Shown here: one piece after another, positions 1,068 to 46,300 of the stretch
Layout: every line of letters begins with the position of its first letter
Position numbering within the stretch: position 1 is the stretch's first letter
NCBI RefSeq assembly: GCF_000025485.1
Contig: NC_013851.1
Span: 2,213,501 to 2,277,500 of the forward strand
Origin: Allochromatium vinosum DSM 180
Lineage (GTDB): Bacteria; Pseudomonadota; Gammaproteobacteria; Chromatiales; Chromatiaceae
DNA: 64,000 nt
Direction of reading: 5' to 3'
Position numbers and translations under genes: made by a program
The notes under the pieces: model-generated
The model's input: only the letters and a program-made list of their open reading frames with translations
What the model was told of the DNA's origin: nothing
Database searches by the model: none

Positions 1068-2357
1068 TTGAACACACACATCGACCAGATTCCAACGCCT
1101 TCACAGCTCAAGACACTGATCGGCGGCCGCGCTGTTCACATCTGGGGCGCCCGGCACGACGGCTATGCGGCGTACCATGTTTTGAACCGTCATGGCATCG
1201 ATATCCAGGCTTTCATCGATTCCAGTCTGGCGCTCCAAGGGCAGCGTGTCTTTGGCAAGGATATTCAGCTCCCGGAACCCTTTTTCGCTACCGAAACACC
1301 GCAAACGGCCTTTATCCTGATCGCATCCGGATTCCATGCCGACGCCATTGTTCAGGACTGTCAGCGTCATGGCTTCCAGGTCGGGCGGGATGTCGTGATC
1401 CAGGGCGATTTGCGACTGTTCAACTATCAGGTCGACATTGCCGGAAGCTGCAATCTGCGCTGCATCTCCTGTCCGCGCGGCAACTTCGACACCCATCGCC
1501 CCAAGGGTTTCATGTCGGCAGAGACCTATCGCGCTCTGCTCGACAAGATCCTGCGTGACGATCCCTACACGGGCATCATCACGCTCTACAACTGGGGCGA
1601 GCCGCTGCTCAATCGCGAGCTGCCCGAAATTCTCGCACTCACCCACTCGCGTGGTCTGCTCTCAGCCCTGTCGAGCAACCTGAGCTTCAAACTCGACTTC
1701 GAGCCGGTCATCGCCGCACGTCCGACCTGGTTCCGCATTTCGGTATCCGGCTGGGGCGAACGCTACGAGATCACGCACACCGGCGGAAACTGGGCGCGCC
1801 TGATGGAGAACATCCGCCGTCTGGCTGAGTATCGTGATCGGCATCATCCCGGGATGCTGGTCGAGGTGTTCTACCATCTCTATAACGACAACCGCGACGA
1901 CATCCACCGCTGGCAAGCGTTGTGTGACGAGTTGGGATTCATGCTACGTTATCGTCATGCAGCACTGGCCCCATTGGACAACATCGAAGCCATTCTCGAA
2001 GGACGCGCGGTCAACGAACGTGTTCGGCGCACCATGGCGCTGCAACAGCTTCAGGTCGGGGAGGTCATGGAGCTGGCGCTGGCCGAACGCCACCGGCCCT
2101 GCTACTACGAGCGCCATCTCTGGATCAATTGGAATCTGGAGGTTGCGCACTGTATGGAATGGTATCGACCCGATCTCAACCTCGTGCCCGGAAGCTTCAT
2201 GGATACCACACCTGAACAGCTGATCGCCGCGCGCGAGGCCAGTGAATTCTGTATGCGCTGCAAGGAGCGCGGCATCCATCGCTGCTTCATCGTCTACAGC
2301 GACGAGCGGCTGATCATCGAGCGCGACCGTCTGCCGATTGCGGCTGGAGACGCCTGA
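1068..2357 (+). CDS. radical SAM protein with N-terminal WG Rossmann-like domain, paralog 1
   Basis: A 429-residue protein in three parts. Residues 20-115 form a Rossmann-like domain with HIWGAR, a Gly-containing helix start and a QAFIDSS strand. The radical SAM core follows, with the CX3CX2C cluster-binding motif at C128, C132 and C135 and a downstream YNWGEPLLN segment. The C-terminal SPASM/twitch-like region has Cys at 345, 362, 395, 398 and 406, which could bind an auxiliary iron-sulfur cluster. The start is TTG: the only nearby ATG, at 1051, runs into a stop after six codons. The next paralog begins one base after the stop. The substrate is unknown; the context points to a sugar or glycoconjugate. 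Confidence 0.85.
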   Translation: MNTHIDQIPTPSQLKTLIGGRAVHIWGARHDGYAAYHVLNRHGIDIQAFIDSSLALQGQRVFGKDIQLPEPFFATETPQTAFILIASGFHADAIVQDCQRHGFQVGRDVVIQGDLRLFNYQVDIAGSCNLRCISCPRGNFDTHRPKGFMSAETYRALLDKILRDDPYTGIITLYNWGEPLLNRELPEILALTHSRGLLSALSSNLSFKLDFEPVIAARPTWFRISVSGWGERYEITHTGGNWARLMENIRRLAEYRDRHHPGMLVEVFYHLYNDNRDDIHRWQALCDELGFMLRYRHAALAPLDNIEAILEGRAVNERVRRTMALQQLQVGEVMELALAERHRPCYYERHLWINWNLEVAHCMEWYRPDLNLVPGSFMDTTPEQLIAAREASEFCMRCKERGIHRCFIVYSDERLIIERDRLPIAAGDA

Positions 2358-2358
2358 C

Positions 2359-3633
2359 ATGGACTGGGATCGGTTGCGTCTGCACGCCGCTTTCGGCACG
2401 CGCGAGGTGTGGATCTGGGGCGCCATGATCGTGGGCCAAGGAGTTTGCCGCGCCCTGCAGCGTGCGGGCATGACGGTCGCCGGTTTCATCGATTCCAGTC
2501 CAGCCATGCAGGGGCAGACGGCACTCGGCTATCCGGTTAGCGCGCCTGAGACCGTGCTGGAGCGGGTACGCAACGCAGAAGCCTTCATCATCATCGGTTC
2601 GGGGCATCACGATCAGACCATTGAGGACCGCTGTCGTGCGCATGGCCTGACCGCTGAGCGCGATTATCTGTCTTCACGCCGGCTCAATGACATCGATCCC
2701 AGCATCGACGTCTCCGGGATGTGCAATCTGCACTGCATCTCGTGCCCGCAAGGCAATCTCAGCGACCGACCGCCGACAGGTTTCATGAGGCTGGACGCCT
2801 ACACGGCGATCCTTGGCAAGCTGCTCGACGAGCTGCCGTTTCTGGGCAGCATCCAGCTCTACGCCTGGGGTGAGCCCTTGTTGAATCGCCAACTGCCCGA
2901 CATGATTGCGGCGACTCGCGAGGCGCAGGTGTTGAGCGCGATTTCGACCAATCTGAAGACTGCGCGCGATCTGGAGGCCGTGGTGACCGCCCGCCCCGAC
3001 TGGATCAAGGTCTCGGCGTCCGGCTATGGTGCAAGCTATGCCATCGGTCACACCGGCGGGGATTGGGATCGGTTTCTCGCCAATCTGCACCGGCTCTCAC
3101 GACTGCGCGCGCGTCATCATCCTGAGCTACAGATCGTTCTCAACTACCATCTCTACCGCCACAGTCTTGGCGAGAGCTATCGTGCGATGCGCGCGTTGTG
3201 CGATGAACTCGGATTCATCTTTCGGCCCAACATGGCCTATCTCTACTCGCTCGACAACGTGCTCGACTATGTCGAGGGTCGACCGCTCTCGCCCGAGGCC
3301 GAGCGCACACTGGAACTGATGCTGCTCGACATCGACAGCGGATTGGAGCGCGCCCGCCGGCGTCGGCACCATCCCTGTCCCGAGGAGCGCTGTCTGCCCA
3401 TCAACTGGGATGGACGGGTGCGCTTCTGTGGGGTCTATTTCAAGCCGTTCATCGCGGATGATTTTCTGGCCACGCCGTTGAGTGAGATCCTGGCCCGTCG
3501 ACAGGGCAGCGAATTTTGTCGGCGCTGCATGAGTCATGGACTGCATCACTACACCGCCGTGTACCTGGAAGAACGCCTCCTTGCGGCTGGCGGTGAGTCG
3601 GCTCAGCAAACGGATGTCGACGCCGATGACTGA
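2359..3633 (+). CDS. radical SAM protein with N-terminal WG Rossmann-like domain, paralog 2
   Basis: The second copy, 424 residues, with the same layout. EVWIWGAM lies near residue 16 and AGFIDSS follows. The CX3CX2C motif is at C122, C126 and C129, and the core contains YAWGEPLLN and YHLYRHSLGE. The C-terminal SPASM-like region has CPEERC, RFCGVYF and FCRRC. I chose the ATG at 2359 over the in-frame TTG at 2338 because GGAGA lies eight bases upstream and the start sits one base after the previous stop, which suggests coupled translation. It is very similar in order and motifs to paralogs 1 and 3, so this is a tandem duplication that has diverged. Confidence 0.87.
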   Translation: MDWDRLRLHAAFGTREVWIWGAMIVGQGVCRALQRAGMTVAGFIDSSPAMQGQTALGYPVSAPETVLERVRNAEAFIIIGSGHHDQTIEDRCRAHGLTAERDYLSSRRLNDIDPSIDVSGMCNLHCISCPQGNLSDRPPTGFMRLDAYTAILGKLLDELPFLGSIQLYAWGEPLLNRQLPDMIAATREAQVLSAISTNLKTARDLEAVVTARPDWIKVSASGYGASYAIGHTGGDWDRFLANLHRLSRLRARHHPELQIVLNYHLYRHSLGESYRAMRALCDELGFIFRPNMAYLYSLDNVLDYVEGRPLSPEAERTLELMLLDIDSGLERARRRRHHPCPEERCLPINWDGRVRFCGVYFKPFIADDFLATPLSEILARRQGSEFCRRCMSHGLHHYTAVYLEERLLAAGGESAQQTDVDADD

Positions 3634-4894
3634 TACGGCTCACATCCTGGAGCCGGTGCGTCGCGCCGCCGCTGAACGCCCCATCTGGATCTGGGGGGCC
3701 GGCAATCAGGGGCGCGGGATCGGCTCGGTGTTGCGGGAACAGGGGGTCGAGCTGAGCGGATTCGTCGATCAGGCGGCCGAGCGGTTGGCGTCGCAGGTCA
3801 TGGGACTGCCGGTGCGGCTGCCGACCGCTGTGCTTGATGCCGCGCCCCCCCAGCCGCGACCTTTCGTGATCATCGCCTCCTGGTTCTTCGAGGCCGAGAT
3901 CGCCGATCAGCTTCAGGCGGCTGGATTCGTCGAGTCAGAGGACTTCATCGGCTATGCGCGCCTCAAGCCGGTGGATTACTCGGTCGATATCGTCGGCGTG
4001 TGCAATCTCAAGTGTCTGGCGTGTCCGCGCGCCAGCCGCGCGCCCGGTCCGGGCAAACAGGGACTGATGCCGCTCGCCACCTTTCGCGCCGTGCTGGACA
4101 AGATCCTGACCGAAAGCCCCTTCGTCGGTAATCTCCAGCTCTATCAATGGGGCGAGCCGGTATTGCATCCGCAACTGCCCGAGATCATCGAATACGCCCG
4201 CGAGCGTGGGGTCTTGTGCGCCATTTCCAGCAATCTCAACGCTGACGCGGACTATGCCCGCATCGTTGCGGCACGCCCCGAATGGCTGCGGATCTCGGCT
4301 TCGGGCTGGGGTGATGACTATGAGATCGCGCATACGCGCGGGCACTGGCCGCGCTTTCTCGCCCATCTGCGCGAGGTCGCGCGCCTACGCCGTGTGCTCT
4401 ACCCATCGATGAAGATCGAGTTGTATTACCATCTCTACCGGCATAGTTTGGGCGAAGGGCTGGAGCGGTTTCGGGAGCTTTGTGAGGAGCTGGAGCTGGA
4501 ACTGCGGCCGATTCCGGCCTATCTGATCTCGCTCGACGATGTACTGGGCTATTGCGAGGGGCGTTCCCTGCCCGAGCCGGCACGGCAGGCGGCTGAACGG
4601 TTGGTGGTGAGTCTGGATGATGGGCTTGCCGCCGCGTACCGACAGCGTCATCTGGCCTGTGACGTGCTTCGGTGCGTCAATATCAACTGGGATGCCTCGG
4701 TCAGTCAGTGCATGCTCTACTACGATACGGCCGATAACAGCGTGGCGCCGAATTATCTGGACGTTTCGCTGGAGCAGATTCAGGTGCGGCGTCATCGCGC
4801 CGAGCTCTGCCGGCGTTGCAGCCGATTTGGGCTGCATCGGTATTGCGCGTCCTATGCGCAGATGGCACCGAACAGCGGGGTGAGTGCGCCGTGA
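3614..4894 (+). CDS. radical SAM protein with N-terminal WG Rossmann-like domain, paralog 3
   Basis: The third tandem copy, about 426 residues. PIWIWGAG is at residues 23-30, LSGFVD follows, and the cluster motif is C130, C134 and C137. YQWGEPVLHPQLP and YHLYRHSLGE are conserved with the other copies. The SPASM-like tail contains CDVLRC, SQCMLYY, LCRRC and a final Cys in HRYC. The start is either ATG 3614 or ATG 3626; both overlap the end of paralog 2, and the second forms an ATGACTGA overlap. A longer upstream extension only re-reads paralog 2 in another frame. The stop overlaps the GTG of the next gene, so all of these genes look co-translated. Confidence 0.85.
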   Translation: MSTPMTDTAHILEPVRRAAAERPIWIWGAGNQGRGIGSVLREQGVELSGFVDQAAERLASQVMGLPVRLPTAVLDAAPPQPRPFVIIASWFFEAEIADQLQAAGFVESEDFIGYARLKPVDYSVDIVGVCNLKCLACPRASRAPGPGKQGLMPLATFRAVLDKILTESPFVGNLQLYQWGEPVLHPQLPEIIEYARERGVLCAISSNLNADADYARIVAARPEWLRISASGWGDDYEIAHTRGHWPRFLAHLREVARLRRVLYPSMKIELYYHLYRHSLGEGLERFRELCEELELELRPIPAYLISLDDVLGYCEGRSLPEPARQAAERLVVSLDDGLAAAYRQRHLACDVLRCVNINWDASVSQCMLYYDTADNSVAPNYLDVSLEQIQVRRHRAELCRRCSRFGLHRYCASYAQMAPNSGVSAP

Positions 4895-6204
4895 ATATTC
4901 GGGTTCTGCATCTTGCGCCTCACTACGGCGGCGGTGTCGGCACCGTGGTTCGCGCTCTGATCGCTGAGAGCCGGCGTCTTGGCGGTTATACGCACCGTCT
5001 GGCTTGTCTCGAAGCCGCGAGTGAGATCACCCGCAGTTGGGCCGGCCGGCTCGGCGTCGGGCTGGCGGATCGATTGCATTGGGATGATGCGGCACTCCAG
5101 CAGGTGTTGCGCGACACGGATCTGGTCCATCTGCACTGGTGGCATCATCCGTTGCTCAACGCCATGATGCATCGCTGGGATCTGCCGCCGTTTCGCTGTG
5201 TGCTCTGGACGCATGTCAACGGACATCATCCGCCGCAGAATTTTCCGCCTGGACTGATCGATTATCCGGATCTGCTGGTTTTGGCGACGTCCTGGAGCCT
5301 GAAGGCACCAGCCTTGGCCGAGGCGGTGACCCAGGGGCGGGATATCCGGGTCGTGCGTAGCAGTGCCGGTCTTCCGCAGATGCCGCCGCGTGTCGAGCGG
5401 GGGGATGGTCCGGTACAGGTTGGCTATGTCGGGACGGTCGATCCGATCAAGATGCATCCGGATTTTATCCGGCTGTGCCTGGAAGCGGATATTCCGGGAC
5501 GTATCGTGGTGGCCGGCGGTCCTTGTCATGAGGATTTGCGCGCCGCCGCCAAGTCGGCCGGAGCCGAGGATCGCTTCGAGATTTTAGGTCCGATCGACGA
5601 TGTTCCGACGCTGATGAGTCGTCTGGACGTCTTGGCCTATCCGCTCAATTCGCAGCATTACGGGACCGGGGAACAGGTTCTACTGGAGTCGGTGGCGGCC
5701 GGGGTTCTGCCCGTGGTGTTGGGAACAGAGAACGAGCGCGAAACGCTGGATCTGTTGGGATGCGGTTTGAGCGCAGAGACCGAAGAAGACTTCGTCACTT
5801 TGCTCCGTCAGATTACGACTGATACGACGATCTTGCGCCGTGAATACAGGCGTTGCGCAGCGCTATCAGATAGCGAGCTGGACCTTAACAAAATCACGAC
5901 GGCCTGGCATCGGATTTACGATCAGGTATTTGAATTCCCCTCTAAGCCGCACCGCATTTGCGGCATTGATCGTGCCAACCCCCGCCCGCATGAATTACTG
6001 CTTGCGTCCTGCCAAGGCACCAAGCTCGCTGATTTATATTCACGGCTTATAAAACACGCCACCTTCGATGAAGAAGATTGGCAGGACATCCCCATGGGGT
6101 GTCTTGCCAAGACACGCGGCTCCTGTTTCCATTACGAAAAATTTTACGATGATCCGGCGCTGAAGCAGATCGCAGAAGCATTCAAGCCGAGGCTTGCAAG
6201 GTAA
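4891..6204 (+). CDS. GT4-type (GT-B fold) glycosyltransferase
   Basis: A protein of about 437 residues starting with GTG in a GTGA overlap with the upstream stop; GGGGTGAG lies a few bases before it. The N-terminus, VLHLAPHYGGGVGTVVRAL, is the glycine-rich acceptor-side loop of family 4 glycosyltransferases. The C-terminal half has the donor-binding region YGTGEQVLLESVAAGVLPVVLGT followed by NERETL. It probably transfers a sugar from a nucleotide donor during glycan assembly at the inner face of the membrane. The last 100 or so residues, encoded after about 5840, are unlike a standard GT4 end and coincide with a drop in GC, so the gene may be chimeric. Confidence 0.82.
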   Translation: MNIRVLHLAPHYGGGVGTVVRALIAESRRLGGYTHRLACLEAASEITRSWAGRLGVGLADRLHWDDAALQQVLRDTDLVHLHWWHHPLLNAMMHRWDLPPFRCVLWTHVNGHHPPQNFPPGLIDYPDLLVLATSWSLKAPALAEAVTQGRDIRVVRSSAGLPQMPPRVERGDGPVQVGYVGTVDPIKMHPDFIRLCLEADIPGRIVVAGGPCHEDLRAAAKSAGAEDRFEILGPIDDVPTLMSRLDVLAYPLNSQHYGTGEQVLLESVAAGVLPVVLGTENERETLDLLGCGLSAETEEDFVTLLRQITTDTTILRREYRRCAALSDSELDLNKITTAWHRIYDQVFEFPSKPHRICGIDRANPRPHELLLASCQGTKLADLYSRLIKHATFDEEDWQDIPMGCLAKTRGSCFHYEKFYDDPALKQIAEAFKPRLAR

Positions 6205-6211
6205 ATTACTG

Positions 6212-7429
6212 ATGGATATTCATGCGTTGGCGGCCATGTCGCGGAATCGCCCCGTTTACTGCTGGGGTGCGGGCCGCTATGGTGTCATGGCAATGGATGC
6301 ACTACGTCGGCATGGAGTCGGCATTACAGGGTTCATCGATAAAACAATTCGGTCTTCTCGTGACGATACGAACAAGATTTTAGCGCCTGAAGCTATTGAT
6401 TCACCCGCTGACGGCTTTGTTGTTGTCACGAGCATGTTTTTTGAACATGAAATAGAAAGCGCTCTACTGGCCAAGGGATATACGAACGAACGCGATTACG
6501 TGCTTTATTCCAATCTCAAACGCTGGAGTTTCGAAATCGATGTCTCCGGAATTTGTCAGCTAAAGTGCCCGACCTGTCCAAATGGAAATTTTACAGGCCG
6601 TAAACTTTCGCAAACGATGATGAGTTTTGCACTGTATTGTCAAATTCTGGACAAGCTGATCACTGAAGTGGATTTTCTTCCTGATGTGCAGCTTTATTCA
6701 TGGGGGGAGCCGCTACTCAATCCTTCTTTGCCGGATATCGTTGCCTATTCAGCTGATCAGGGAGTGGCCGTTGGAATTTCATCGAATCTGAACGACATCA
6801 GACATCTTGAACGCACCGTTCAGGCAAAGCCTGACTGGTTTCGAGTTTCTCTGTCCGGAACTGGCAATCAATACAGCCTGACCCACAGAGGAGGAAATTG
6901 GGACAAAGTTGCATCCAACATGGAGCAGCTCGCCAGACTGCGAGACTTGCACCATCCGGAAATGATCATCGAAGTCAATTATCATCTTTACCGAAACAAC
7001 GAAAAAAATCTTGATGAGATTGCAGCGATTTGCGAAAGAAATGGATTTTTACTCAAACCCAATGCGGCCTACATTGATCCGCTTGACACACTCATTGACT
7101 ATGCCGAGGGAAAGCCGCTCCCAGACAGCATGCTTGAAATTGCGCAGAGCCTCATACTGGATATCGACGCTGTAATTCAGGACTGCCGCCTGAGTTCCTC
7201 GGATAGTTGTGTGCGTGAAAATACGATCGTAATTCACAGTGACGGCACTATTCGCCAGTGTCCGCATGTATTCGGAAGCCAATACAAGCTAGAAAAAAAC
7301 ATTCTCTCATCATCCATCTCCGAGATTGACCGACTGTTCTTGGCTCGCGATTTATGCGCGCGATGCAAGTCTTTAGGCATGAACAATTTCTACGCCCATT
7401 TTCTTTCCCACACAAAGCTTGAATCATAG
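6212..7429 (+). CDS. radical SAM protein with N-terminal WG Rossmann-like domain, paralog 4 (AT-rich copy)
   Basis: The fourth copy, about 405 residues, separated from the other three by the glycosyltransferase. PVYCWGAGRYG is at residues 14-24, ITGFID follows, and the cluster motif is C115, C119 and C122. YSWGEPLLNPSLP and YHLYRNNEKN match the other paralogs. The SPASM-like tail is leaner but keeps SCVREN, RQCPHV and LCARC. The ATG at 6212 is preferred over a TTG at 6194 because AAGGT lies nine bases before it. Its bases are much richer in A and T than in paralogs 1-3, so it came with the low-GC segment rather than from a local duplication. Confidence 0.85.
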   Translation: MDIHALAAMSRNRPVYCWGAGRYGVMAMDALRRHGVGITGFIDKTIRSSRDDTNKILAPEAIDSPADGFVVVTSMFFEHEIESALLAKGYTNERDYVLYSNLKRWSFEIDVSGICQLKCPTCPNGNFTGRKLSQTMMSFALYCQILDKLITEVDFLPDVQLYSWGEPLLNPSLPDIVAYSADQGVAVGISSNLNDIRHLERTVQAKPDWFRVSLSGTGNQYSLTHRGGNWDKVASNMEQLARLRDLHHPEMIIEVNYHLYRNNEKNLDEIAAICERNGFLLKPNAAYIDPLDTLIDYAEGKPLPDSMLEIAQSLILDIDAVIQDCRLSSSDSCVRENTIVIHSDGTIRQCPHVFGSQYKLEKNILSSSISEIDRLFLARDLCARCKSLGMNNFYAHFLSHTKLES

Positions 7430-7606
7430 CGTCTTAACGATAAATAAAGCGGCCATGGCCACAAAATTAAATTATAAACCCAAGTCTGAAAGAGACTGCA
7501 CCTCGAATCACTGAAGCCTCAGGCATTTAGTGCATATGCGCATCAATAGCCATCTCAAAAAACGACGCATCGATTACTTGCGCTTCAGCATAGAGACAAA
7601 ACAATA

Positions 7607-8344
7607 ATGGATTATGCATTAATAACTGGATCCAGCAGCGGACTTGGCTATTGCATCGCAAAAGTATTTGCCAAGCATGGCATTACTCCGATCTTGACCG
7701 GACGGGATCAAGCATCACTTAACAGGGCAGCAAATTTCATCCAGAGAGAATCAGCGTTAAATCCAATTCGCTTTGCTGGAAATTTGACTGATGATTCTAT
7801 ACCAATGGCTTTGCACCGATTCATCTGCGACCAAGGGATCACTCCGCGCTATCTCGTTCACAATCTCGGCGGCGGCATTCAAGGTGATTGCAAAAACCCG
7901 CCGCTCTGCGTGCTGCGCAAATCTTTTCGACTCAATTTTGAAGTTTCCATTGAAATCAACTCGATTTTTTATGACGATCTAAAAAAAACGTCCGCTAAAA
8001 TTGTACATATCGGCTCGACTTCATCATTGCACCATGATGCCCCGCCAAGTTATTTGACGAGCAAATCAGCCATTTTGCCTTACGTAAAAAACGCAGCCCG
8101 ATCCTTTGCTAAAGATGGACTAACTATATTCGCAGTTTTACCAGGCATGTTGGACCATCCTGGAAGCTATGTCGATCGTTTAAGGATTGGCGATCCTGAT
8201 CGGCATGACAGATTTCTCGAAAAAATGACGTATGGTCAGTTTGTGCCATCTATTGAAGTTGCGCACTATATAGTTTCACTATGCCTAGTCGAAAGCAATA
8301 TGATCAACGGCTCGATTATCACAATTGATGGAGGGGTCGACTGA
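7607..8344 (+). CDS. short-chain dehydrogenase/reductase (classical SDR)
   Basis: A 245-residue classical SDR, NAD(P)-dependent. The cofactor motif is TGSSSGLGYCIAK (residues 7-19). The catalytic triad is visible as S in HIGSTSS, then Y and K in YLTSK. The C-terminus, NGSIITIDGGVD, is the standard end of FabG-like enzymes. The NNAG strand is altered to HNLGGG. It starts after a 177-base gap and its stop overlaps the next ATG, so it is translated together with the cobalamin-domain radical SAM gene. The substrate is unknown; a sugar or small polyketide-like building block is possible. It is AT-rich like the rest of the segment. Confidence 0.83.
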   Translation: MDYALITGSSSGLGYCIAKVFAKHGITPILTGRDQASLNRAANFIQRESALNPIRFAGNLTDDSIPMALHRFICDQGITPRYLVHNLGGGIQGDCKNPPLCVLRKSFRLNFEVSIEINSIFYDDLKKTSAKIVHIGSTSSLHHDAPPSYLTSKSAILPYVKNAARSFAKDGLTIFAVLPGMLDHPGSYVDRLRIGDPDRHDRFLEKMTYGQFVPSIEVAHYIVSLCLVESNMINGSIITIDGGVD

Positions 8345-9792
8345 TGATGGATGTCATTCTGGTATCTTCCTACCAACCCGGATCAGTAACCCGCATCGAT
8401 ATTGCACCGCCTTTATCTATTCTGCTGTTGATGGGAGCGCTAGAGCAAGCAGGTTATCGCTCGCGCATGATCGACCTGAATCTTTACAAACCAAGCTCTT
8501 GCGAGGATGAAGAAGCTTTTTACACCAAAATCATTGCATCAGAAATCAAAAGCAAGCAGACATTGGTCGGCTTCTCATGCTTGACAACCGGGCATTTTCC
8601 CTTTTTCAAAAAGGCCGCATCTTATCTTAAGCTAAACTTTCCAACTATTCGCGTTGCAATTGGCGGATGCCATTCTTCACTTTTTGGAAGCGATATACTT
8701 TACCATTGCCCTGAAATCGATTATGTGGGAATTGGCGAAAGTGAAGAACAAATTGTAGAACTGGTATCGACCCTCGACAAAAATTGGAATTCATCTGACT
8801 TTGATATTCAGGCATTTGGGTGGCGCGATACGGCCGGCAATATTCAGCTGCGTGAAAGAGAAATTTTCAACAAAGATCTGGATACAATCTATCATCCTTC
8901 CTGGCATTCGGTTAATTTCGAAAAATATTATCGCGATCATTCGCAATGGCACAATCCAAAACAGCATGACATCAAAGTTTCGATACCAATTCAAACTTCA
9001 CGCAGCTGCCCGTTTTCATGTAGTTTCTGCTCATCTATCGAAGTAAATGGTCGAGGTTATAGACGACGCTCTGCAAACGCAGTTGTGGACGAAATACAGC
9101 TTCACGTTGAACAATTCGGGCATCGTTATTTTGGATTCGTAGATGATAATCTCACGGTATCAAAGCGACACATTTTGGCGATAATGAACGAAATTGTTCG
9201 TCGCGATCTTGATATTCAGTTTGAATCATTTAGCGGCTATCATATTGCAACGTTGGACGAAGAGGTCATAACAGCACTCGTTGAGGCCGGCTGCATTTAC
9301 ACGCTCATGCCAATCGAGCATGGAAACGAGCGAATGCGCAATCAGATCATTGGCAAAAAATTGCCTACAGAAAAGATTTATGAAGTAGTAGAAAATTATC
9401 GAAAATTCGAAGTGCTAATTCGAGCCGTTTTCATTATGGGATTCCCTGAGGATACACATGATACCCTGAGGGATACGTTAGAAATGATCCAAAGACTGCA
9501 AGTTGATTTGGTCGATGTCTTTACACTCATCCCATACCCCGGCACTAAAGTTTTCGAGCAAGCTATGCGGGATGATTTGTTTATCAACAAAATTGATCAA
9601 AAAGAATTATGGTCCGGGCACTATACCCTAAACAATCAATCAAGCACTTTTTATTTGAAGCCATATTCGTTGTCACTGAACGACTTAGGGCAATGGAGAA
9701 AAACTTTTGATACGTTAAGCGAAGATCATTTAAACAACTGGAAAGCCACAAAAAATTCACGTCTCAATAAAATACGGAGCGCGCTCAGTTGA
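8344..9792 (+). CDS. B12-binding-domain radical SAM protein
   Basis: A 482-residue protein. Residues 1-150 resemble the cobalamin-binding fold of class B radical SAM enzymes: PPLSILLLMGALEQAGY, LVGFSCLT, VAIGGCHSSLF and VGIGESEEQI. The DxHxxG signature for base-off cobalamin is not evident. The radical SAM core begins with C222, C226 and C229 (RSCPFSCSFC) and continues with FVDDNLTV and a glycine-rich GFPEDTHDTL. Members of this family methylate or rearrange unactivated carbons in lipids and natural products. It is flanked by an SDR and two methyltransferases, which suggests tailoring of a rare sugar or lipid-linked substrate. Which carbon is modified cannot be told. Confidence 0.8.
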   Translation: MMDVILVSSYQPGSVTRIDIAPPLSILLLMGALEQAGYRSRMIDLNLYKPSSCEDEEAFYTKIIASEIKSKQTLVGFSCLTTGHFPFFKKAASYLKLNFPTIRVAIGGCHSSLFGSDILYHCPEIDYVGIGESEEQIVELVSTLDKNWNSSDFDIQAFGWRDTAGNIQLREREIFNKDLDTIYHPSWHSVNFEKYYRDHSQWHNPKQHDIKVSIPIQTSRSCPFSCSFCSSIEVNGRGYRRRSANAVVDEIQLHVEQFGHRYFGFVDDNLTVSKRHILAIMNEIVRRDLDIQFESFSGYHIATLDEEVITALVEAGCIYTLMPIEHGNERMRNQIIGKKLPTEKIYEVVENYRKFEVLIRAVFIMGFPEDTHDTLRDTLEMIQRLQVDLVDVFTLIPYPGTKVFEQAMRDDLFINKIDQKELWSGHYTLNNQSSTFYLKPYSLSLNDLGQWRKTFDTLSEDHLNNWKATKNSRLNKIRSALS

Positions 9793-10556
9793 GTATTTTT
9801 TATGAAGAAAAAGAAAAAGAAATCTTTGATCGCCAATTTTTTTTGATCGAAGCATTAGGCATCGATTCGCCTTTGATTTTTGATGTTGGTGCCAACATTG
9901 GACAAAGCGTTGATCGTTACAGCAAAGCCAAACCAGAATCAATCATTCACTGCTTTGAGCCGAACCCCTATGCATTTGAAAAATTGGTTCTGCATTGCAA
10001 AAACCGCAATCATGTCAAATTAGTCAATTCAGCTCTTTCCGATCACTATGGATCCACTCGTTTTTATGCCACTCAACGCACTGAGCTCAGCTCATTGCTG
10101 CGCCCTGAATCATGGTTAAGCGCTTTAAGCAGTGATGAAAAATATAAATTCGACGAGTTGTTTATATCCTGTATAACTCTCGACCAATATTGTCAGGATT
10201 CAGGGATTGAGTGGATTGATATTCTAAAAATTGATGTTCAAGGTGCTGAGCCAAAAGTGCTTCAAGGAGGGGTGAAGCTTCTCAGTAGCAACCGCATTGG
10301 ATTGATTTATTTGGAGGTCATGCTGGCTGAGACTTATGTCAATCAAGCAACGCTAGCGCAATTGCTGGAAACACTGGGAGCTTACCATTATCGTTTATGG
10401 GATCTAGTACCTTTCACTTACACCAGCGCCGGCGCCGCCTGGACAGCTAACGCATTATTTATATGCCCGCAGTGGGCAAAACAAGTTGAGGAAAAATCCC
10501 GTCGCTCAATTTCAGAAAATAAATCTGATCAAAAACAGCATAACCATGACTCTTGA
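9789..10556 (+). CDS. FkbM-family SAM-dependent methyltransferase
   Basis: A 255-residue protein. The SAM-binding motif is FDVGANIGQSVDRY (residues 31-44), followed by CFEPNPYAFEKL. The FkbM signature ILKIDVQGAEPKVLQGG comes near the middle. FkbM enzymes O-methylate hydroxyl groups on sugars and polyketides. The start is TTG, overlapping the previous stop as TTGA, and no in-frame ATG exists at the N-terminus. The C-terminal tail is rich in charged residues and overlaps the next gene by 11 bases. The very low GC of the first codons (about 30%) marks the centre of the imported segment. Confidence 0.85.
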   Translation: MSIFYEEKEKEIFDRQFFLIEALGIDSPLIFDVGANIGQSVDRYSKAKPESIIHCFEPNPYAFEKLVLHCKNRNHVKLVNSALSDHYGSTRFYATQRTELSSLLRPESWLSALSSDEKYKFDELFISCITLDQYCQDSGIEWIDILKIDVQGAEPKVLQGGVKLLSSNRIGLIYLEVMLAETYVNQATLAQLLETLGAYHYRLWDLVPFTYTSAGAAWTANALFICPQWAKQVEEKSRRSISENKSDQKQHNHDS

Positions 10557-11712
10557 TCGTTCTTGTCCTGTCTGCTCAGCAGAGGAAAGATTTTTACTGC
10601 GCTCACTTGATTATGCGCTATTTGATGACCTGCCGTTTTCAGGCACTACAGCCCTTGTGAGCTGCAAAAAATGCGGTATGGTCTTTAGTCAACTTGAAGG
10701 AGGGTCAGACGCATTAAATACATACTATAAATCGAACAATCATTATTTTTTCTCGCAGACTCCTGGATCGGGCGGGATAACCGAGATTGACCAGCGGCGT
10801 TATTTTCGTTTGTTTGAACTTTTGCGCCTTGAGCAAGAAAAAACGAAAACAATCCTGGATTTTGGATGCGGAAAAGGCGGCTGGCTTGCATGGCTTAATC
10901 AGATTGGATTCTCATCATTAATTGGCATTGAGGCATCTGTTGCCTGCCGCCAAATAATTGGGAATTATGATTCAGTTAAAATCTATAGCAACACAGGCGC
11001 TTTACCAGAAGATGAGGCGCCAGAGATTATTACCTTCAGCCATGTTCTTGAGCATCTTCATGATCCGTTGCTTGAACTCAAAACATTAATTTTCAAATCT
11101 CCCAAAAACGCTATTTTTTTTATCGAGGTTCCTAACGCACCGGCCATGCTGAAAAAAGCAAATCCGTGGCCTGATTTGTTTTTTGAACATATCAATCACT
11201 TTGACGAATTTTCTCTTAAAAATTTAGTTTGGCGCGCAGGTCTTGAAATTATTCAGTCTGGTAGCTGGGCCTTCGATCCACTGAATGATAAAGGCGACGA
11301 ATGCCTGTATTTGATCTGTCGCCAGGGAAGTTATAATCAAGAAAAACGGCTTTTCTCACGCTTGTCTTCTTGGCCGCTCCAACTGGCTGCCGCACTGGAA
11401 CACCGACCACTTTCTGAATCATTTATATTATCTCTTGATTTAAGACGTCCACTTGCACTATGGGGCTGTTCGCAGTACTCAATGCTCGTACTCGGCATGC
11501 ACCCTGAAGTCCGCATGCGAATTCACCAATTGTTCGATACATCGCCAGCCAAGATCGGTCGTGACATTGATGGGGTAAAGATCCAGCATTCATCACAGCT
11601 ACGTTACCTCAACAAGGATTACGCGCTGTTGTTGCCTCGCTCAGACTATCTTGACTCTATGCTCAAGGAAATTTCAAATACAGACATCCAGCTTGACACA
11701 TTCATTTTCTGA
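10546..11712 (+). CDS. zinc-ribbon class I methyltransferase with C-terminal WG domain (C-methyltransferase-like)
   Basis: A protein of about 388 residues. It starts with a CxxC...CxxC ribbon (C7, C10, C40, C43) like the putative zinc-binding domain of sugar C-methyltransferases such as TylC3 and NovU. The SAM domain has ILDFGCGKGGWL, GIEAS and FSHVLEHLHDP. The last 90 residues contain LALWGCSQYSMLVLG and an LFDTSP strand, the same WG-type Rossmann-like domain found at the N-terminus of the four radical SAM proteins upstream. I chose ATG 10546, which makes a short overlap; the earlier start at 10486 would overlap by 71 bases. The likely substrate is a nucleotide-linked deoxysugar. Confidence 0.8.
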   Translation: MTLDRSCPVCSAEERFLLRSLDYALFDDLPFSGTTALVSCKKCGMVFSQLEGGSDALNTYYKSNNHYFFSQTPGSGGITEIDQRRYFRLFELLRLEQEKTKTILDFGCGKGGWLAWLNQIGFSSLIGIEASVACRQIIGNYDSVKIYSNTGALPEDEAPEIITFSHVLEHLHDPLLELKTLIFKSPKNAIFFIEVPNAPAMLKKANPWPDLFFEHINHFDEFSLKNLVWRAGLEIIQSGSWAFDPLNDKGDECLYLICRQGSYNQEKRLFSRLSSWPLQLAAALEHRPLSESFILSLDLRRPLALWGCSQYSMLVLGMHPEVRMRIHQLFDTSPAKIGRDIDGVKIQHSSQLRYLNKDYALLLPRSDYLDSMLKEISNTDIQLDTFIF

Positions 11713-11733
11713 ACAACAACCGGCATCTATACT

Positions 11734-12510
11734 ATGATTGATGATCGCGATATTTTTCTTGCTGAGCGGCAGAGGCGTGTCAAAAGCTACCAGCACGATA
11801 GCGTCTTGCTAGATGCAAGCAAGCAGTTTATGAGCGAGACGTTACGCACAAAATATTCTTATCAGTTCGACTGGTTAGGTCTTCCGATCATTCAATATCC
11901 ACAAGATATCGTCATTATGCAGGAGCTGATCTGGTCAGTACGGCCAGATCTGATCATCGAAACTGGAATTGCGCGCGGCGGCTCTTTGATTTTTAGTGCA
12001 TCGATGCTCGCCTTGCTGGATTTAAGCGAGAATATCGTGGGCAATCACGCCACATTTCACTCTAAGCGAAAAGTGGTAGGCGTGGATATTGATATCCGCC
12101 CCCATAACCGACGCGCGATTGAAAAAAGCTCTTTTATTTCTTACATTGAAATGATCGAGGGATCAAGTATTGAGTTTGATATAATCGAACAGGTCAGATT
12201 ATTGGCTAAGGACTACCATCGACCAATGGTCTTTCTCGACTCGAATCATACTCATAGTCATGTTTTGGCCGAACTTGAAGCATATGCGCCATTGGTTGGA
12301 GTCGGCTCATATTGCGTTGTATTTGACACTTTAATTGAAGACTATCCATCTGCCACTTTCGCGGATCGCCCCTGGCACGCAGGTAACAGCCCTAAAAGCG
12401 CTGTAAATGAGTTCCTCTGCACCAACTCGAACTTTCAGATTGACTCTTTCATTCAGGACAAACTTTTAGTCACGGCAGCTAAAGACGGATTTTTGAAGCG
12501 CTTAAAATGA
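11734..12510 (+). CDS. cephalosporin hydroxylase (CmcI)-like protein, probable methyltransferase
   Basis: A 258-residue member of the CmcI family, which has a class I SAM-methyltransferase fold despite its hydroxylase name. The sequence shows LIIETGIARGGS near residue 74 as the glycine loop, VVGVDIDIRPHN as the acidic strand, and FLDSNHTHSHVLAELEAYAPLV with the Asp and His typical of the family's metal site. Homologs occur in lipopolysaccharide and rhamnan clusters, where sugar O-methylation is the usual proposal. It begins 21 bases after the zinc-ribbon methyltransferase and belongs to the same transcription unit. It is AT-rich, like its neighbours. Confidence 0.82.
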   Translation: MIDDRDIFLAERQRRVKSYQHDSVLLDASKQFMSETLRTKYSYQFDWLGLPIIQYPQDIVIMQELIWSVRPDLIIETGIARGGSLIFSASMLALLDLSENIVGNHATFHSKRKVVGVDIDIRPHNRRAIEKSSFISYIEMIEGSSIEFDIIEQVRLLAKDYHRPMVFLDSNHTHSHVLAELEAYAPLVGVGSYCVVFDTLIEDYPSATFADRPWHAGNSPKSAVNEFLCTNSNFQIDSFIQDKLLVTAAKDGFLKRLK

Positions 12511-12556
12511 CAATTCACCTCTATCTGTATTGATGTCACCTTGCAGAATTCACGCC

Positions 12557-14431
12557 ATGAACCCTTTGCTCAAATCGCGCAAGATAATAATCATGAAGCT
12601 CCTGGCCAACCAGGAATATTCTAATGCCGAATCTGCGGCACGCCGTTTTATCGAGCTGTATCCAGATGAGGTTTTTGGATGGAAAATAGCTGGCGCCGCA
12701 TGCTTTTATTTAGGGCGCTACCAAGAGGCTCGGGATTTTTTACTTAAAGCCGTTGTTTTCAATAGCCGCGATCCGGAAATTTTCAGTACATTAGGTAATG
12801 CATTGTTTTATCAGGGACGCATTAAAGATGCCTTGAGATGTTTTGAGCGTTCTTTGGAGATTGATGCCGATCACAGCCCGGCTCTCAATGGGAAAGGACT
12901 GTGCTTGATGGGCCTGAGTCTTGATCGAGCTGAAGAGGCAAGAAAATGCTTTGAGCGCGCATTGAGCGCCAATCAAAGTCAACCTGAAGTCTATTGCAAT
13001 CTAGGTGCGCTCCTTAGTCAGCTGGGTCAGCTAGACGAGGCTGTTGATCTGCAAAGAAAATCGCTCGAACTAAATCCAACATACGCTGAGGCCTACAGTA
13101 ATCTGGGACATGCTTTGCAAGATCTTGGAAGAGTCGATGAAGCGCTCGATGCGCTTGAAAAAGCCACTCAGGTCAACCCGCATTCGGCAGTGCTTTTTTC
13201 AAATCGATTATATGCACTGAACTACCATCCCGACAAAACGGCTGAGGATATTTTTAAATCCTATCAAGAATTTGATCGTTTGTTCGGTTTGCCGCATCGC
13301 GCCAGTTGGATTCCGCACAGCAATGACCGAGATCCAGAACGGCGTTTGCGCATTGGCTATGTGTCAGCTGACTTTGGTTCGCATGTGATCGGTTATCACT
13401 TAGAGCCTCTTCTGGCCAATCATAGTCGCGAACAATTTGAGATTACAGCTTACACTGAACGCGTTGGGTCCGATGGATTGACAGCACGCTATCGACGGCT
13501 GATTGATCACTGGGTTCCAACAAAGGAATTGACGGATGAGGTCATGGCTGAACGCATCCGTTCCGATGGCATCGACATTCTGATTGATCTGGCTGGACAC
13601 ACGTCTGGAAATCGTCTGGGTGTGTTTGCCCGCCGCCCGGCTCCGGTCGCTGTGACCTGGATGGGTTATGGTTATACAACTGGCCTGAGTGCTATCGATT
13701 ATTTCCTCACCGATGCGGTCATGACGCCTCCAGGCAGTGAGCATCTGTTTGCTGAGCAGATTTGGCATGTAGATTGTCCGGTCGGGACATATCGACCGGC
13801 ACCAGACATGGGTGAGGTTGGGCCATTACCTGCACTCACAAACGGAACAGTGACCTTCGGCACCCTTACACGCGGCATTCGAATCAATCATCGGGTCGTT
13901 CGAGTTTGGTCAGACATCCTGCGGCGGCTTCCAGGTTCACGTCTCGTCGTTGACAACAAATCATTTGTCACCGAAACGGCGCAAGCACGTCTAGCTGAGC
14001 AATTTGCTGCGCACGGCATCGAGCGCGAGCGACTTATTATCGGCTACCACAGTCCGCCATGGGATGTGCTGCGTAGTACCGATATCAGTTTGGACTGCTT
14101 TCCGCATAATTCCGGTACGACCCTGGTTGAATCGTTATACATGGGTGTTCCCTTTATCACCCTGGCTGCACGCCCCAGTGTTGGGCGTTCGGGCAGCACC
14201 GCACTCATTGCGGTTGATCACCCGGAATGGATCGCAACCACCGAAGCAGAATATGTGGATAAGGCCATCGCCTTGGCAAGCGATATCGAGCGTCTGGCGA
14301 CGATTCGCGCCGGACTGCGCGCTGAATTCGAGGCCAGCCCCTGGCGCGACGAATCTGGTTTTACCCGACGCGTCGAGCAAGCTTATCGGGAGATGTGGCG
14401 CCGCTGGTGTGCGACGCCCCAAAAAAAATGA
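12557..14431 (+). CDS. TPR-SPINDLY (GT41, OGT-like) glycosyltransferase 1
   Basis: A protein of about 624 residues. TPR repeats cover roughly residues 20-230 (for example VYCNLGALLSQLGQLDEAVDLQ). The GT41 catalytic part follows, with RLRIGYVSADFGSHVIGYHLEP, DGIDILIDLAGHTSGNRLG, VTWMGYGYTTG and the UDP-binding block DCFPHNSGTTLVESLYMGVPFITL. Members transfer a sugar to Ser or Thr of proteins. The position of the catalytic Lys842 of human OGT, nine residues before a conserved Trp, is Arg here. Possible starts are 12533, 12557 and 12593; I chose the second by comparison with the next gene. The 5' half is AT-rich and the 3' half GC-rich. Confidence 0.85.
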   Translation: MNPLLKSRKIIIMKLLANQEYSNAESAARRFIELYPDEVFGWKIAGAACFYLGRYQEARDFLLKAVVFNSRDPEIFSTLGNALFYQGRIKDALRCFERSLEIDADHSPALNGKGLCLMGLSLDRAEEARKCFERALSANQSQPEVYCNLGALLSQLGQLDEAVDLQRKSLELNPTYAEAYSNLGHALQDLGRVDEALDALEKATQVNPHSAVLFSNRLYALNYHPDKTAEDIFKSYQEFDRLFGLPHRASWIPHSNDRDPERRLRIGYVSADFGSHVIGYHLEPLLANHSREQFEITAYTERVGSDGLTARYRRLIDHWVPTKELTDEVMAERIRSDGIDILIDLAGHTSGNRLGVFARRPAPVAVTWMGYGYTTGLSAIDYFLTDAVMTPPGSEHLFAEQIWHVDCPVGTYRPAPDMGEVGPLPALTNGTVTFGTLTRGIRINHRVVRVWSDILRRLPGSRLVVDNKSFVTETAQARLAEQFAAHGIERERLIIGYHSPPWDVLRSTDISLDCFPHNSGTTLVESLYMGVPFITLAARPSVGRSGSTALIAVDHPEWIATTEAEYVDKAIALASDIERLATIRAGLRAEFEASPWRDESGFTRRVEQAYREMWRRWCATPQKK

Positions 14432-14458
14432 CATTTGAAGAATAGTTTGAGGTTTGAC

Positions 14459-16548: not shown

Positions 16549-17043
16549 ATGATTCAACATCGCTGGCCGACCCAACTGGCCGTTTATCCCTACGCCCAAC
16601 CACTGATGATCGGCTGGCAGATCGCTGATCGTGAACGCGATGTCTATTGGAACGACTATGAGCAGGCACTCGATGCCTATCTGACGGCGCAGGACGAGGA
16701 TGTGCCGGAGGCAGAGCGTCAGAGCTGGCTTCTGACCAGTCGCGAACGCTTTCAGGCGCTGGCCGCCAAGGGCGACCGTCATATCGGTACCAGCCTCGCG
16801 CTGATCCGTATCCATGCCGAACTCGGCGAACCGCAGGCCGTGATCCAGGCCATCGAGCAACTGCTCGACATCATGCCCTGGATGGCCGAACCCCTGCCCG
16901 ACGCACTGGAGATCCATATCAACCGCCCCTTTCTGGCGCCGCTCCCCAGCTTCGACTACAGTCAGGTTTTCGAGGGCGAGCTGGGCAACTGGCTCCAATC
17001 CGGCATCATGACCGCCCTGGAAACCGCCGATCGCGCGTCATGA
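16549..17043 (+). CDS. hypothetical protein, acidic, helical
   Basis: A 164-residue protein I do not recognise. It is acidic and mostly helical in look, with a run of possible TPR-like helices in the middle (IGTSLALIRIHAELGEPQAVIQAIEQLLDI split by Gly). There is no signal peptide or membrane segment. AAAGAG lies a few bases before the ATG. It converges with the TPR-methyltransferase, and the two coding ends overlap by six bases. Lying between OGT-like genes and the flagellin block, it could be an accessory to flagellin modification, but this is only positional inference. Confidence 0.7.
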   Translation: MIQHRWPTQLAVYPYAQPLMIGWQIADRERDVYWNDYEQALDAYLTAQDEDVPEAERQSWLLTSRERFQALAAKGDRHIGTSLALIRIHAELGEPQAVIQAIEQLLDIMPWMAEPLPDALEIHINRPFLAPLPSFDYSQVFEGELGNWLQSGIMTALETADRAS

Positions 17044-19338: not shown

Positions 19339-19449
19339 GGCGTTGCCAATTGTCTGGCGATCATGGGCGCGACTGACCGGCTCTGCCGCCCCCGTCCTGG
19401 CGTGGGAACCAGGAGCCTGGACCTGTAGAGCCATCGGTACAGCGCTCGA

Positions 19450-19455
19450 ATTATA
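19450..19455 (-). promoter_or_regulatory. candidate -10 box for the TPR-methyltransferase
   Basis: The minus strand reads TATAAT here, with the only candidate -35 (GCGGCA, 17 bases upstream) matching three of six consensus bases. Transcription would start near 19443 and give a leader of about 105 bases to the ATG at 19338. This supports that ATG over the one at 19434, which would be almost leaderless. Confidence 0.3.
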
Positions 19456-19558
19456 AGATGGTGTGTTTTCCGTGCCGCCTCCCGCGCCTACAATCCGAAG
19501 GCGGGGGCATCCGTCGGGTACTCTGTGACCGGCGTCACGCTTGGCGCGACGCAACGGT

Positions 19559-21784: not shown

Positions 21785-21809
21785 ACTCATGGTCAGTTAA
21801 GTGACAGAT

Positions 21810-21840
21810 GCGGGCGGCGCTCCAGACGGAGTCCGCCCGC
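21810..21840 (+). terminator. strong hairpin between fliC and flaG
   Basis: GCGGGCGG at 21810-21817 pairs perfectly with CCGCCCGC at 21833-21840, and inside it CTCC (21820-21823) pairs with GGAG (21828-21831) around an AGAC loop. No U-tract follows. It may be a partial terminator or a 3' stabilising structure that keeps flagellin mRNA more abundant than the downstream cap and chaperone message. It also argues against a flaG start at 21801, which would place the hairpin in coding sequence. Confidence 0.6.
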
Positions 21841-21860
21841 TCGAACCAGGAGATACAGCG

Positions 21861-22331
21861 ATGGCCGGCGACCCCTTGAGTGTCAGCGGAACGACACAAC
21901 CGATTCAATCCACCGGGGCCACAAGCGCACGGACGCCTTCGAGTTCCGAGATACGTCCAAACGGTTTGCCGCCGCCCGGCAACCGCACTGACACCATACA
22001 AGGCAACGCCACACGTTCGGCGAACCGCCTCGACTCCGGTCAACCGGGCCGCACCGACGACAGCCGAACCGATCCATCCCAAGGTGTCGCCGCGACCGAC
22101 AAGGATAAGGTCGAAAAACTGACCGAAGCGGTCGACAAGATCAACGAAATGATGCAGCAGGGAAAGCAAATGCTGACCTTCCAACTCGACGACGACTCGG
22201 GGCGGATGGTGGTCCGGGTAGTCGACTCCCAGAGCAAGGAAGTCGTCCGCCAGATCCCGAGCGAAGAGACGCTCAACTTCGCCAAATACGTCGATGGACT
22301 GGTCGGTCTGATTTTCAACAAGAAGGCGTGA
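21861..22331 (+). CDS. flaG: flagellar protein FlaG
   Basis: A 156-residue protein of the FlaG family, which in other bacteria affects filament length. The N-terminal 90 residues are low-complexity, rich in Pro, Ser, Thr and Gly. The conserved domain is at the C-terminus: LTFQLDDDSGRMVVRVVDS, then VVRQIPSEETLNFAKYVDGL and LIFNKKA. I chose ATG 21861 because AGGAG lies eight bases upstream and a strong hairpin precedes it; the GTG at 21801 is rejected. It is the usual companion between fliC and fliD. Confidence 0.9.
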   Translation: MAGDPLSVSGTTQPIQSTGATSARTPSSSEIRPNGLPPPGNRTDTIQGNATRSANRLDSGQPGRTDDSRTDPSQGVAATDKDKVEKLTEAVDKINEMMQQGKQMLTFQLDDDSGRMVVRVVDSQSKEVVRQIPSEETLNFAKYVDGLVGLIFNKKA

Positions 22332-22394
22332 ACCGCCGGCCGCCGACGTGATGGGCGTGGCAGACCGGTTCGACGAGACACTGGAGCAACAGCC

Positions 22395-24440: not shown

Positions 24441-24458
24441 GGCAGGCGTCTTCAGGCT

Positions 24459-45226: not shown

Positions 45227-45241
45227 CGCTCTCACCTCGAT

Positions 45242-46273: not shown

Positions 46274-46300
46274 ACGACGAAACACCTCGATGGACGCGGT

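Follow-up and report, generated by a model that had tools for sequence, protein, structure and literature searches.

A trio of radical SAM paralogs in a putative flagellin glycosylation cassette of Allochromatium vinosum

Four radical SAM genes in a sugar cassette

The stretch of Allochromatium vinosum DSM 180 analyzed here, hereafter the window (64,000 nucleotides, positions 2213501-2277500 of a 3.67-Mb genome in three contigs; overall guanine-cytosine (GC) content 0.616), opens with four paralogous genes for radical S-adenosylmethionine (SAM) proteins, all on the forward strand: A (1068-2357, TTG start), B (2359-3633, ATG start), C (3614-4894) and D (6212-7429). An earlier note on this DNA had described four genes of one architecture at 1068, 2359, 3614 and 6212, and our check of the open reading frames (ORFs) confirmed all of them, starts and stops included, together with the N-terminal WG domain (residues ~1-115 in A), the radical SAM core and a C-terminal end that appears twitch-like. 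The note's tandem arrangement of the first three is likewise borne out, B beginning one base after the stop of A and C overlapping B by 20 nucleotides. Between C and D, as also described, lies the partner gene of the trio, a GT4/group-1-type glycosyltransferase (4891-6204, forward strand; PF00534, 1.3e-9) whose GTG start at 4891 overlaps the stop codon of C and whose end is seven bases from D; it had no NCBIfam match at 1e-10. B, C and D are 40%, 36% and 30% identical to A, and among named relatives Allochromatium warmingii comes closest (identities of 86%, 84% and 83% for A, B and C).

The cluster exceeds the range covered by the earlier note, extending upstream past the window edge and downstream to a flagellin gene at 19670. 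Its core reads rfbF-rfbG-rfbC-like-NAD epimerase-A-B-C-GT4 and is followed by a B12-binding radical SAM gene and methyltransferases. Just upstream of the window are rfbF (L002:16620-17426; NCBIfam 448 vs a cut-off of 300.25 bits) and rfbG, a CDP-glucose 4,6-dehydratase gene (L002:17416-18471; 482 vs 278.45 bits). The window itself holds the 3' end of the rfbC-like gene (1-59, forward), which resembles sugar 3,5-epimerases (the L005 homolog alone was scored, at 161.1 vs 155.75 for rmlC), and an NAD-dependent epimerase/reductase (130-966, forward; PF01370, 1.7e-26) that presumably catalyzes the last step to a cytidine diphosphate (CDP)-6-deoxyhexose. Beyond D, all on the same strand, come an SDR-family oxidoreductase recognized by NCBIfam comparison (7607-8344), the B12-binding radical SAM enzyme (8344-9792; PF02310 5e-14, PF04055 1.2e-16), an FkbM methyltransferase (9789-10556; PF05050 2e-19), a Methyltransf_23 enzyme with a C-terminal WG domain (10546-11712; residues 319-404 of ORF 10486-11712) and a methyltransferase resembling CmcI and rhamnosyl O-methyltransferase (11734-12510; PF04989 2e-85). 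Two proteins combining TPR with a Glyco_transf_41 (GT41) domain, the first a candidate flagellin glycosyltransferase, complete the series (12530-14431, PF13844 1.9e-43; 14435-16459, PF13844 4.5e-41).

D is AT-rich (GC 0.47), and the GC content stays at 0.41-0.47 from D to the CmcI-like gene (6212-12510) and is back at 0.60 in the second GT41 gene; because of this fall relative to the window, the low-GC half of the cassette looks to have been acquired separately. A WG-FkbM methyltransferase gene stands between D and the SDR gene in Thiorhodococcus (L004) and after D, at a contig end, in A. warmingii (L003), and in Allochromatium genome G005 its WG and FkbM parts occupy separate ORFs (L090:13251-14397). 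This gene is absent from the corresponding gap in the window (7430-7606), where no significant trace of it was found. Scans of the locus for promoters and terminators gave signals no commoner than in shuffled sequence, and an Rfam search returned 0 matches.

A scan of public genomes gave 415 confirmed matches, and the 70 loci kept come from the best 80 of these (weaker members fall outside this set). They allowed the cassette to be compared between 16 loci with the A-B-C trio, 29 WG-bearing loci without it and 25 WG-less loci, using window proteins as queries at a threshold of at least 40 bits and excluding L057, in which the WG part is a separate ORF. GT4 lies directly 3' of C in 16/16 trio loci, the kind of co-occurrence with glycosyltransferases in other genomes that the earlier note had expected of a true system. 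Among the trio loci, homologs of RfbF and RfbG were found in 11 each, of the RfbC-like protein and NAD epimerase in 14 each, of the B12-binding radical SAM enzyme in 11, of the WG-bearing Methyltransf_23 enzyme in 13, of FkbM in 10 and of the CmcI-like enzyme in eight; absences are to be read with caution, as contig ends cut the flanks in a number of loci. The respective counts in the 29 WG-bearing non-trio loci are six, nine, zero, zero, six, one, five and zero, with GT4 in none, and in the 25 WG-less loci two, two, two, zero, zero, zero, zero and two, again with no GT4. In L004, L005 and L008 the epimerase is preceded by a C-methyltransferase gene, either the L004 one itself (Methyltransf_13/23/14 by Pfam) or its homolog.

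Clades, gene order and distribution

The four proteins were placed among their homologs, as the earlier note had proposed. A first, quick tree kept 121 rows after removal of matches below 180 bits and of duplicates (loci L073-L082), and a second, more careful one used 57; in both, genes 1, 2 and 3 fall in separate clades. In the careful tree clades A, B and C hold 16 rows each, with support of 100/99, 100/96 and 97/94. In 16/16 loci the order A-B-C is kept on one strand, an additional copy following A in some of them; these loci come from Chromatiaceae, Competibacteraceae, Methylococcaceae, Mariprofundus and deltaproteobacterial or sulfate-reducing lineages. Mean identity across 13 loci is 61%, 59% and 52% within clades A, B and C and 34-38% between them. 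The possibility raised in the earlier note, that the copies are recent identical duplicates with no conservation elsewhere, is rejected by both trees, in which genes 1-3 each group with their orthologs; judged from their sequences, the three genes are old orthologous clades.

Copy number varies around this core. An extra copy stands between A and B in L014 and L016 (beside A in the 121-row tree, unsettled in the 57-row tree), a fragment takes that position in L015, a B12-binding radical SAM gene is inserted between B and C in L011, and C is missing from L013, which has A, A, A, B. In the careful tree the only partners of D are the fourth genes found in A. warmingii and Thiorhodococcus, and D was seen in Chromatiaceae only; Allochromatium genome G005 has four copies too. 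On a plasmid of the cockroach-gut deltaproteobacterium Smac51 (CP026658.1, L083) there are six dispersed radical SAM copies, the best-matching places being annotated 'hypothetical protein'.

Among 55 genomes, three of the eight of the same genus carry four copies (the window's own genome included), and the other 47 gave no full-length match, two of them having partial matches. In a phylum sample of 398 genomes, with at most four candidates scored per listed genome, five had a match at 1e-60 and two a trio, namely the window's own genome and G109, whose coordinates are those of the Mariprofundus genome G060. The trio occurs in two of 46 genomes of the class to which L020 belongs (G069, which is the genome of L020 itself, and G844). 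In a spirochaete sample of 344 genomes, scored for at most five candidates per listed genome and with Brachyspira membership not stated, the sole genome with a match at 1e-40 was the search centre itself. On these samples the trio is rare and patchy, a distribution that fits horizontal spread.

The distance matrices of A, B and C correlate at 0.93-0.95 over 13 loci, with 0/9999 permutations as high, values that shared ancestry alone would also give; from this correlation we consider the trio to be co-inherited as a unit. Sixteen positions are fixed within each group (at least 90%) and differ between A, B and C, and 40 are invariant in all 39 A/B/C sequences, 37 of these also in D. A unit of this kind, with its fixed order and tight spacing (the 1-nucleotide gap and 20-nucleotide overlap), could also be read as the subunits of one heteromeric enzyme performing a single reaction. 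We think this improbable, as none of the three looks non-catalytic: all keep the seven cluster cysteines and the WGEP and YHLY residues described below in 39/39 sequences, and the variable copy number, from the extra genes of L014 and L016 to the A, A, A, B set of L013 and the dispersed plasmid copies of Smac51, sits poorly with a fixed complex.

Cysteines, the WG domain and the radical SAM fold

The CX3CX2C motif, WGEP, YHLY and the C-terminal cysteines are all invariant among the four window proteins. In an alignment of these four with 67 of the 82 full-length matches listed, the seven presumed cluster cysteines are invariant in 71/71 sequences; in a separate comparison they are kept in 39/39 A/B/C and 3/3 D sequences, and the W, G and P of WGEP and the H and Y of YHLY are kept in 39/39 A/B/C sequences. 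Together with the barrel seen in the predicted structure of A (AlphaFold2; predicted local distance difference test, pLDDT, 95.3), the cluster motif places the proteins in the radical SAM superfamily. A SPASM-like, cysteine-rich end had been suggested in the earlier note. Only four C-terminal cysteines are invariant (C345, C362, C395 and C398, in a C...C...CxxC arrangement after the barrel) rather than the seven of the SPASM motif, and this end therefore seems better described as a one-cluster twitch domain. A full SPASM domain was also rejected on score, PF13186 (13.6 vs 21.5 bits for B) and TIGR04085 (14.1 vs 27 for D) both falling short; the twitch model NF033640 in NCBIfam is likewise below its cut-off (31.6 vs 170 bits for D).

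No Pfam or NCBIfam model assigns these proteins to a named family. A passes the PF04055 cut-off of 29.5 bits (35.2), and B (20.3), C (26.3) and D (25.2) are below it. Among the NCBIfam matches listed (the best 25 for A and C), no named radical SAM family reaches its cut-off for A-D, so that a described family with a known peptide substrate, which the earlier note had held against its own proposal, did not emerge. The best NCBIfam match of all four is TIGR04317 (W_rSAM_matur; 39.8-52 bits vs a cut-off of 380), and for ten further relatives no listed match at 1e-8 or better exceeds its cut-off, TIGR04317 reaching at most 78.7 bits. This recurrent match could mean that the proteins are maturases of a metalloenzyme or cofactor, akin to the tungsten-oxidoreductase maturase of TIGR04317, and lie near glycan genes by chance. 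We regard this as very improbable given the distance from the cut-off and the GT4 homolog behind the trio in 16/16 loci. Elsewhere in the window, two neighboring radical SAM genes, one HemN-like and one HydE-like (43751-46285, reverse strand), are also under the cut-offs of their nearest NCBIfam families, and a 700-residue protein without a Pfam (1e-5) or NCBIfam (1e-10) match (40416-42518, reverse strand) adjoins a GT2-FkbM fusion protein.

The earlier note's proposal of a Rossmann-like N-terminal domain is supported, as to fold, by structure prediction of the isolated WG domain (pLDDT 94; Z 10-12 to Rossmann-like domains). Its fold matches the nicotinamide adenine dinucleotide (NAD)-binding domains of Rex (Z 12.3, 2.8 A, 99 residues), a domain of UDP-QuiN 4-dehydrogenase (3nkl; Z 12.2, 2.7 A, 95 residues) and the N-domains of PglB/WeeI/PerB acetyltransferases (Z about 10-11), and the solved FkbM methyltransferase 2py6 holds a domain of the same fold (Z 9.7). 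The best PDB matches of the sequence profile are 3nkl (6.1e-8) and VioB (6.2e-5); the four window N-termini miss the Pfam cut-offs (PglD_N and CoA_binding), and the relative in L023 passes CoA_binding (25.9 vs 22.3). The domain is present in all four radical SAM proteins, as first noted, and is not private to them: it is found C-terminally on the cassette Methyltransf_23 enzyme (hhalign 7.8e-12, nine sequences) and N-terminally on a cassette FkbM methyltransferase (5.5e-15, four sequences). A combined WG profile, whose matches to these two methyltransferase types follow from its make-up, also matches further radical SAM proteins, a B12-radical SAM-like protein (1.5e-5), a HAD-type protein (7e-5) and, weakly (4-5e-5), the C-terminal domain of C-methyltransferases in L005 and L008. 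Because one domain sits on unrelated catalytic folds of one pathway, it probably holds a substrate common to the cassette enzymes. By analogy with PglD and VioB, its ligand is plausibly a nucleotide-sugar, with NAD a live alternative. In a Nitrospirae locus (L022:2362-19374), six proteins besides two WG-bearing radical SAM proteins match the WG profile.

For the radical SAM core, the best PDB sequence-profile match is BtrN (6.8e-9), with DesII (8.9e-4) and BlsE (2.1e-3) weaker, and the top Foldseek match is BlsE. Reading a reaction from fold comparison proved uninformative, since peptide and sugar enzymes tie (SuiB, anSME and DesII at Z ~18, with BlsE and others ranking alongside). By the strand limits of the model, the WGEP, SSNL, SxSG and YHLY segments lie at or near strand ends, where radical SAM barrels bind SAM and substrate. 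Group-specific positions 268, 299 and 301 are predicted to fall within strands 264-272 and 292-297 or immediately behind them, which would fit one chemistry in three different pockets. The invariant C286 was set aside as an epimerase hydrogen donor; it comes late in the helix after strand 264-272, and the topology of the model probably puts it on the barrel face far from the SAM site.

The resemblance of the fold to SuiB, SkfB, anSME and EpeE raises the alternative that these enzymes act on flagellin's own peptide chain, or on that of a small precursor, in the manner of maturases of ribosomally synthesized and post-translationally modified peptides (RiPPs). We give this little credence: a glycosyltransferase follows the trio in 16/16 loci and nucleotide-sugar genes accompany most, the matches of the WG domain are to sugar enzymes and Rex, and every RiPP-maturase model listed stays far below its cut-off (no search for precursor peptides was made).

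Flagellar setting, proposed role and known systems

In the window the cassette continues through the two TPR-GT41 proteins to flagellin, the presumed acceptor (19670-21784, forward strand; PF00669 2.2e-46, PF00700 7.5e-25; 21% Ser+Thr), and then to flaG-like, fliD and fliS genes (21801-25064, forward), FliD and FliS being identified by Pfam and the flaG-like gene by position and by homologs beside FliC elsewhere. With its upstream flank, the window thus has what defines a flagellin glycosylation island, namely glycosyltransferase and sugar-biosynthesis genes beside flagellin, glycosylation itself being predicted. Of 18 trio genomes (those of the 16 loci in the tree, with G005 and G844 added), eight have a flagellin-family gene no more than 20 kb from the trio: the window (by Pfam), L004, L005, L008, L010, L017 and L020 (by Flagellin_N) and G844 (by homology to the window flagellin). 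Three arrangements recur, with FliC after the cassette (window, L005, L008, L010), FliC-FliS before it (L020, G844) or an FlgL-like gene before it (L004, L017); flanking genes called FlgG-FlgK, FlgL, FliW or pilin here were named by eye. G844, ordered FliC-FlaG-FliD-FliS-RfbF-RfbG-RfbC-NADepi-A-B-C-GT4-MT, was found after the pattern had been set and is not an independent case, as it shares class and arrangement with L020.

Several other genes touch on this setting. A 164-residue protein (16549-17043) with no Pfam (1e-3) or NCBIfam (1e-10) match resembles proteins of L003 and L004 and, judged by eye, one next to the flagellin of G005, and a TPR protein with a C-terminal methyltransferase domain (17038-19554, reverse strand) is divergent from flagellin. 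The locus L062:823-20861 contains a WG-less radical SAM relative, a flagellin homolog and several proteins resembling the window TPR-GT41 proteins, a likeness that may concern the TPR part only; it is a possible further link of this radical SAM branch to flagella.

We propose, and think it slightly better than an even call, that A, B and C are the tailoring core of a flagellin glycosylation cassette, for which we infer substrate, acceptor, step order and reaction types. Going by family names, RfbF, RfbG, the RfbC-like epimerase and the NAD epimerase/reductase would make a CDP-linked 6-deoxyhexose. A, B and C would each cleave SAM at the CX3CX2C cluster to give a 5'-deoxyadenosyl radical, take hydrogen from a different unactivated carbon of the sugar, either CDP-linked or on the growing glycan, and finish by oxidation or inversion of the carbinol, helped by one auxiliary cluster (C345/C362/C395/C398) as in BtrN-type enzymes. 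The N-terminal WG domain, also carried by the cassette methyltransferases, would grip the nucleotide or carrier end of the common substrate. GT4, with GT41-TPR proteins where present, could then assemble the glycan and attach it to flagellin in the cytoplasm, and the methyltransferases and B12-binding radical SAM enzyme would cap it.

A number of observations weigh against this proposal. No flagellin-family gene lies within 20 kb in 10/18 trio genomes, and several trio contigs are short (9-28 kb). In Allochromatium G005 the flagellin gene is 158 kb from the trio on a 3.2-Mb contig, and no flagellin occurs on the whole contigs of L007 (75 kb), L016 (116 kb) and L011; the remaining trio contigs are short, or the flagellin matches of the genome are on other contigs. 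The gene in L004 and L017 is FlgL-like rather than a clear flagellin, and the eight flagellin-near cases are not eight independent events. TPR-GT41 proteins lie outside the conserved core, with homologs in 2/16 trio loci, the window counted. L013 also has no homologs of the cassette RfbF, RfbG, RfbC, NADepi or GT4, CDP-sugar genes are not specific to the trio (RfbF/RfbG homologs in 6-9/29 WG-bearing non-trio loci), and the partner queries, being from the window, favor its close relatives. To these must be added the tie in the fold comparison, which does not favor sugar over peptide enzymes, and the ambiguous origin of the Mantel correlation.

Part of this evidence would also suit the same tailoring chemistry acting on another surface polymer, such as a lipopolysaccharide O-antigen, capsule or pilus glycan, with nearness to flagellar genes reflecting shared insertion sites. 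Besides the ten trio genomes lacking a nearby flagellin-family gene, L007 has pilin-like and PMT-like genes downstream (named by eye), and the non-trio WG-bearing relatives occur with rfbF (6/29) and rfbG (9/29) homologs and in no case (0/29) with a FliC homolog in the flanks available. Such a role is harder to reconcile with flagellar adjacency in three different arrangements and with a Flagellin_N match in 17/19 genome entries searched (one genome is entered twice, G006 and G055 being the same by coordinates; the two entries without a match are metagenome-assembled genomes, those of L006 and L009), and we judge it rather unlikely. A Desulfobulbaceae cassette (L092:2808-8104) has pilin-like and PMT-like genes downstream by eye, hinting at a pilin acceptor there.

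Under the flagellin-glycan proposal, the stepwise modification envisaged in the earlier note finds partial support: the copies diverged long ago and carry group-specific residues, and the set is conserved and tied to glycan genes. The note's broader idea of different sugars or positions on one glycan narrows to probably one flagellin glycan derived from a CDP-6-deoxyhexose, on which each copy might serve a sugar or position of its own. A tentative extension, which we rate as possible and doubtful, is an assembly line for this one glycan: WG docking on the radical SAM enzymes, the two methyltransferase kinds and, in some loci, further radical SAM, B12-radical SAM-like and HAD-type proteins would present the CDP-sugar or intermediate, the three radical SAM enzymes would carry out three C-H functionalizations, and flagellar sugars could gain stereochemistry or deoxygenation beyond the reach of ordinary nucleotide-sugar enzymes. 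If so, WG would be a recognizable marker for a whole class of such loci. Most known radical SAM enzymes that remodel sugars belong to aminoglycoside and macrolide pathways; the docking domain could be used to find similar loci, and the cassette offers, in purple sulfur bacteria that can be cultured, enzymes whose predicted substrate is a CDP-sugar.

The closest known counterparts are BtrN and the aminoglycoside-type radical SAM enzymes of sugars and cyclitols (PDB 4m7t), which share the CX3CX2C core and, as the four conserved cysteines suggest, a single twitch-type auxiliary cluster; the BtrN match of the trio core spans only profile positions 118-192, about 75 residues. BtrN has no WG domain, and its substrate is a free cyclitol, whereas here three paralogs stand in a glycan locus. 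DesII, acting on a dTDP-sugar, and BlsE, a cytosylglucuronate decarboxylase, are also radical SAM enzymes of nucleotide-linked or nucleoside sugars but are not close relatives (18.1 bits for D vs a cut-off of 450 with the rSAM_desII model). The WG domain has the Rossmann-like fold and G-loop...FID pattern in common with the N-terminal domains of PglD, VioB and PerB and with 3nkl, which belong to acetyltransferases or a dehydrogenase, and Rex fits it equally well.

Radical SAM genes have been described in other glycan-type loci. A 36-kb plasmid of Brachyspira hyodysenteriae is described as having six radical SAM genes with glycosyltransferase, epimerase, rfbC and rfbF genes (PMC4267127). In nine records its radical SAM proteins matched one trio-family member, at E 4e-5 to 1e-4 and across 26-30% of the query length; they gave no match at 1e-5 with two other members as queries, and were therefore rejected as the same family. 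Radical SAM genes are also mentioned in a capsule-type cluster of Campylobacter jejuni HS:19 (PMC8743553) and among phase-variable genes of Campylobacter fetus (PMC6321876), likened to the trio here by description rather than sequence; the neighbors given for the Brachyspira and Campylobacter genes are glycosyltransferase, epimerase, rfbC/rfbF, methyltransferase or SDR genes (PMC4267127, PMC8743553, PMC6321876).

Flagellin glycosylation islands described in Enterobacteriaceae (PMC4875605) and Geobacillus (PMC5109656) place glycosyltransferase and sugar-nucleotide genes by the flagellin gene, with FkbM and other methyltransferases, and the enterobacterial islands include GT41/SPINDLY enzymes (PMC4875605). 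They differ from the window in that the term 'radical sam' has a count of 0 in either text, as has 'radical' in PMC5109656. In searches of the open-licence PMC literature we found no published account of the A-B-C set or of radical SAM enzymes in flagellin glycosylation; PMC2791219 contains both terms, though only in passages unrelated to each other. The parts and the setting of the cassette are of known kinds, and it is their combination that appears to be new.

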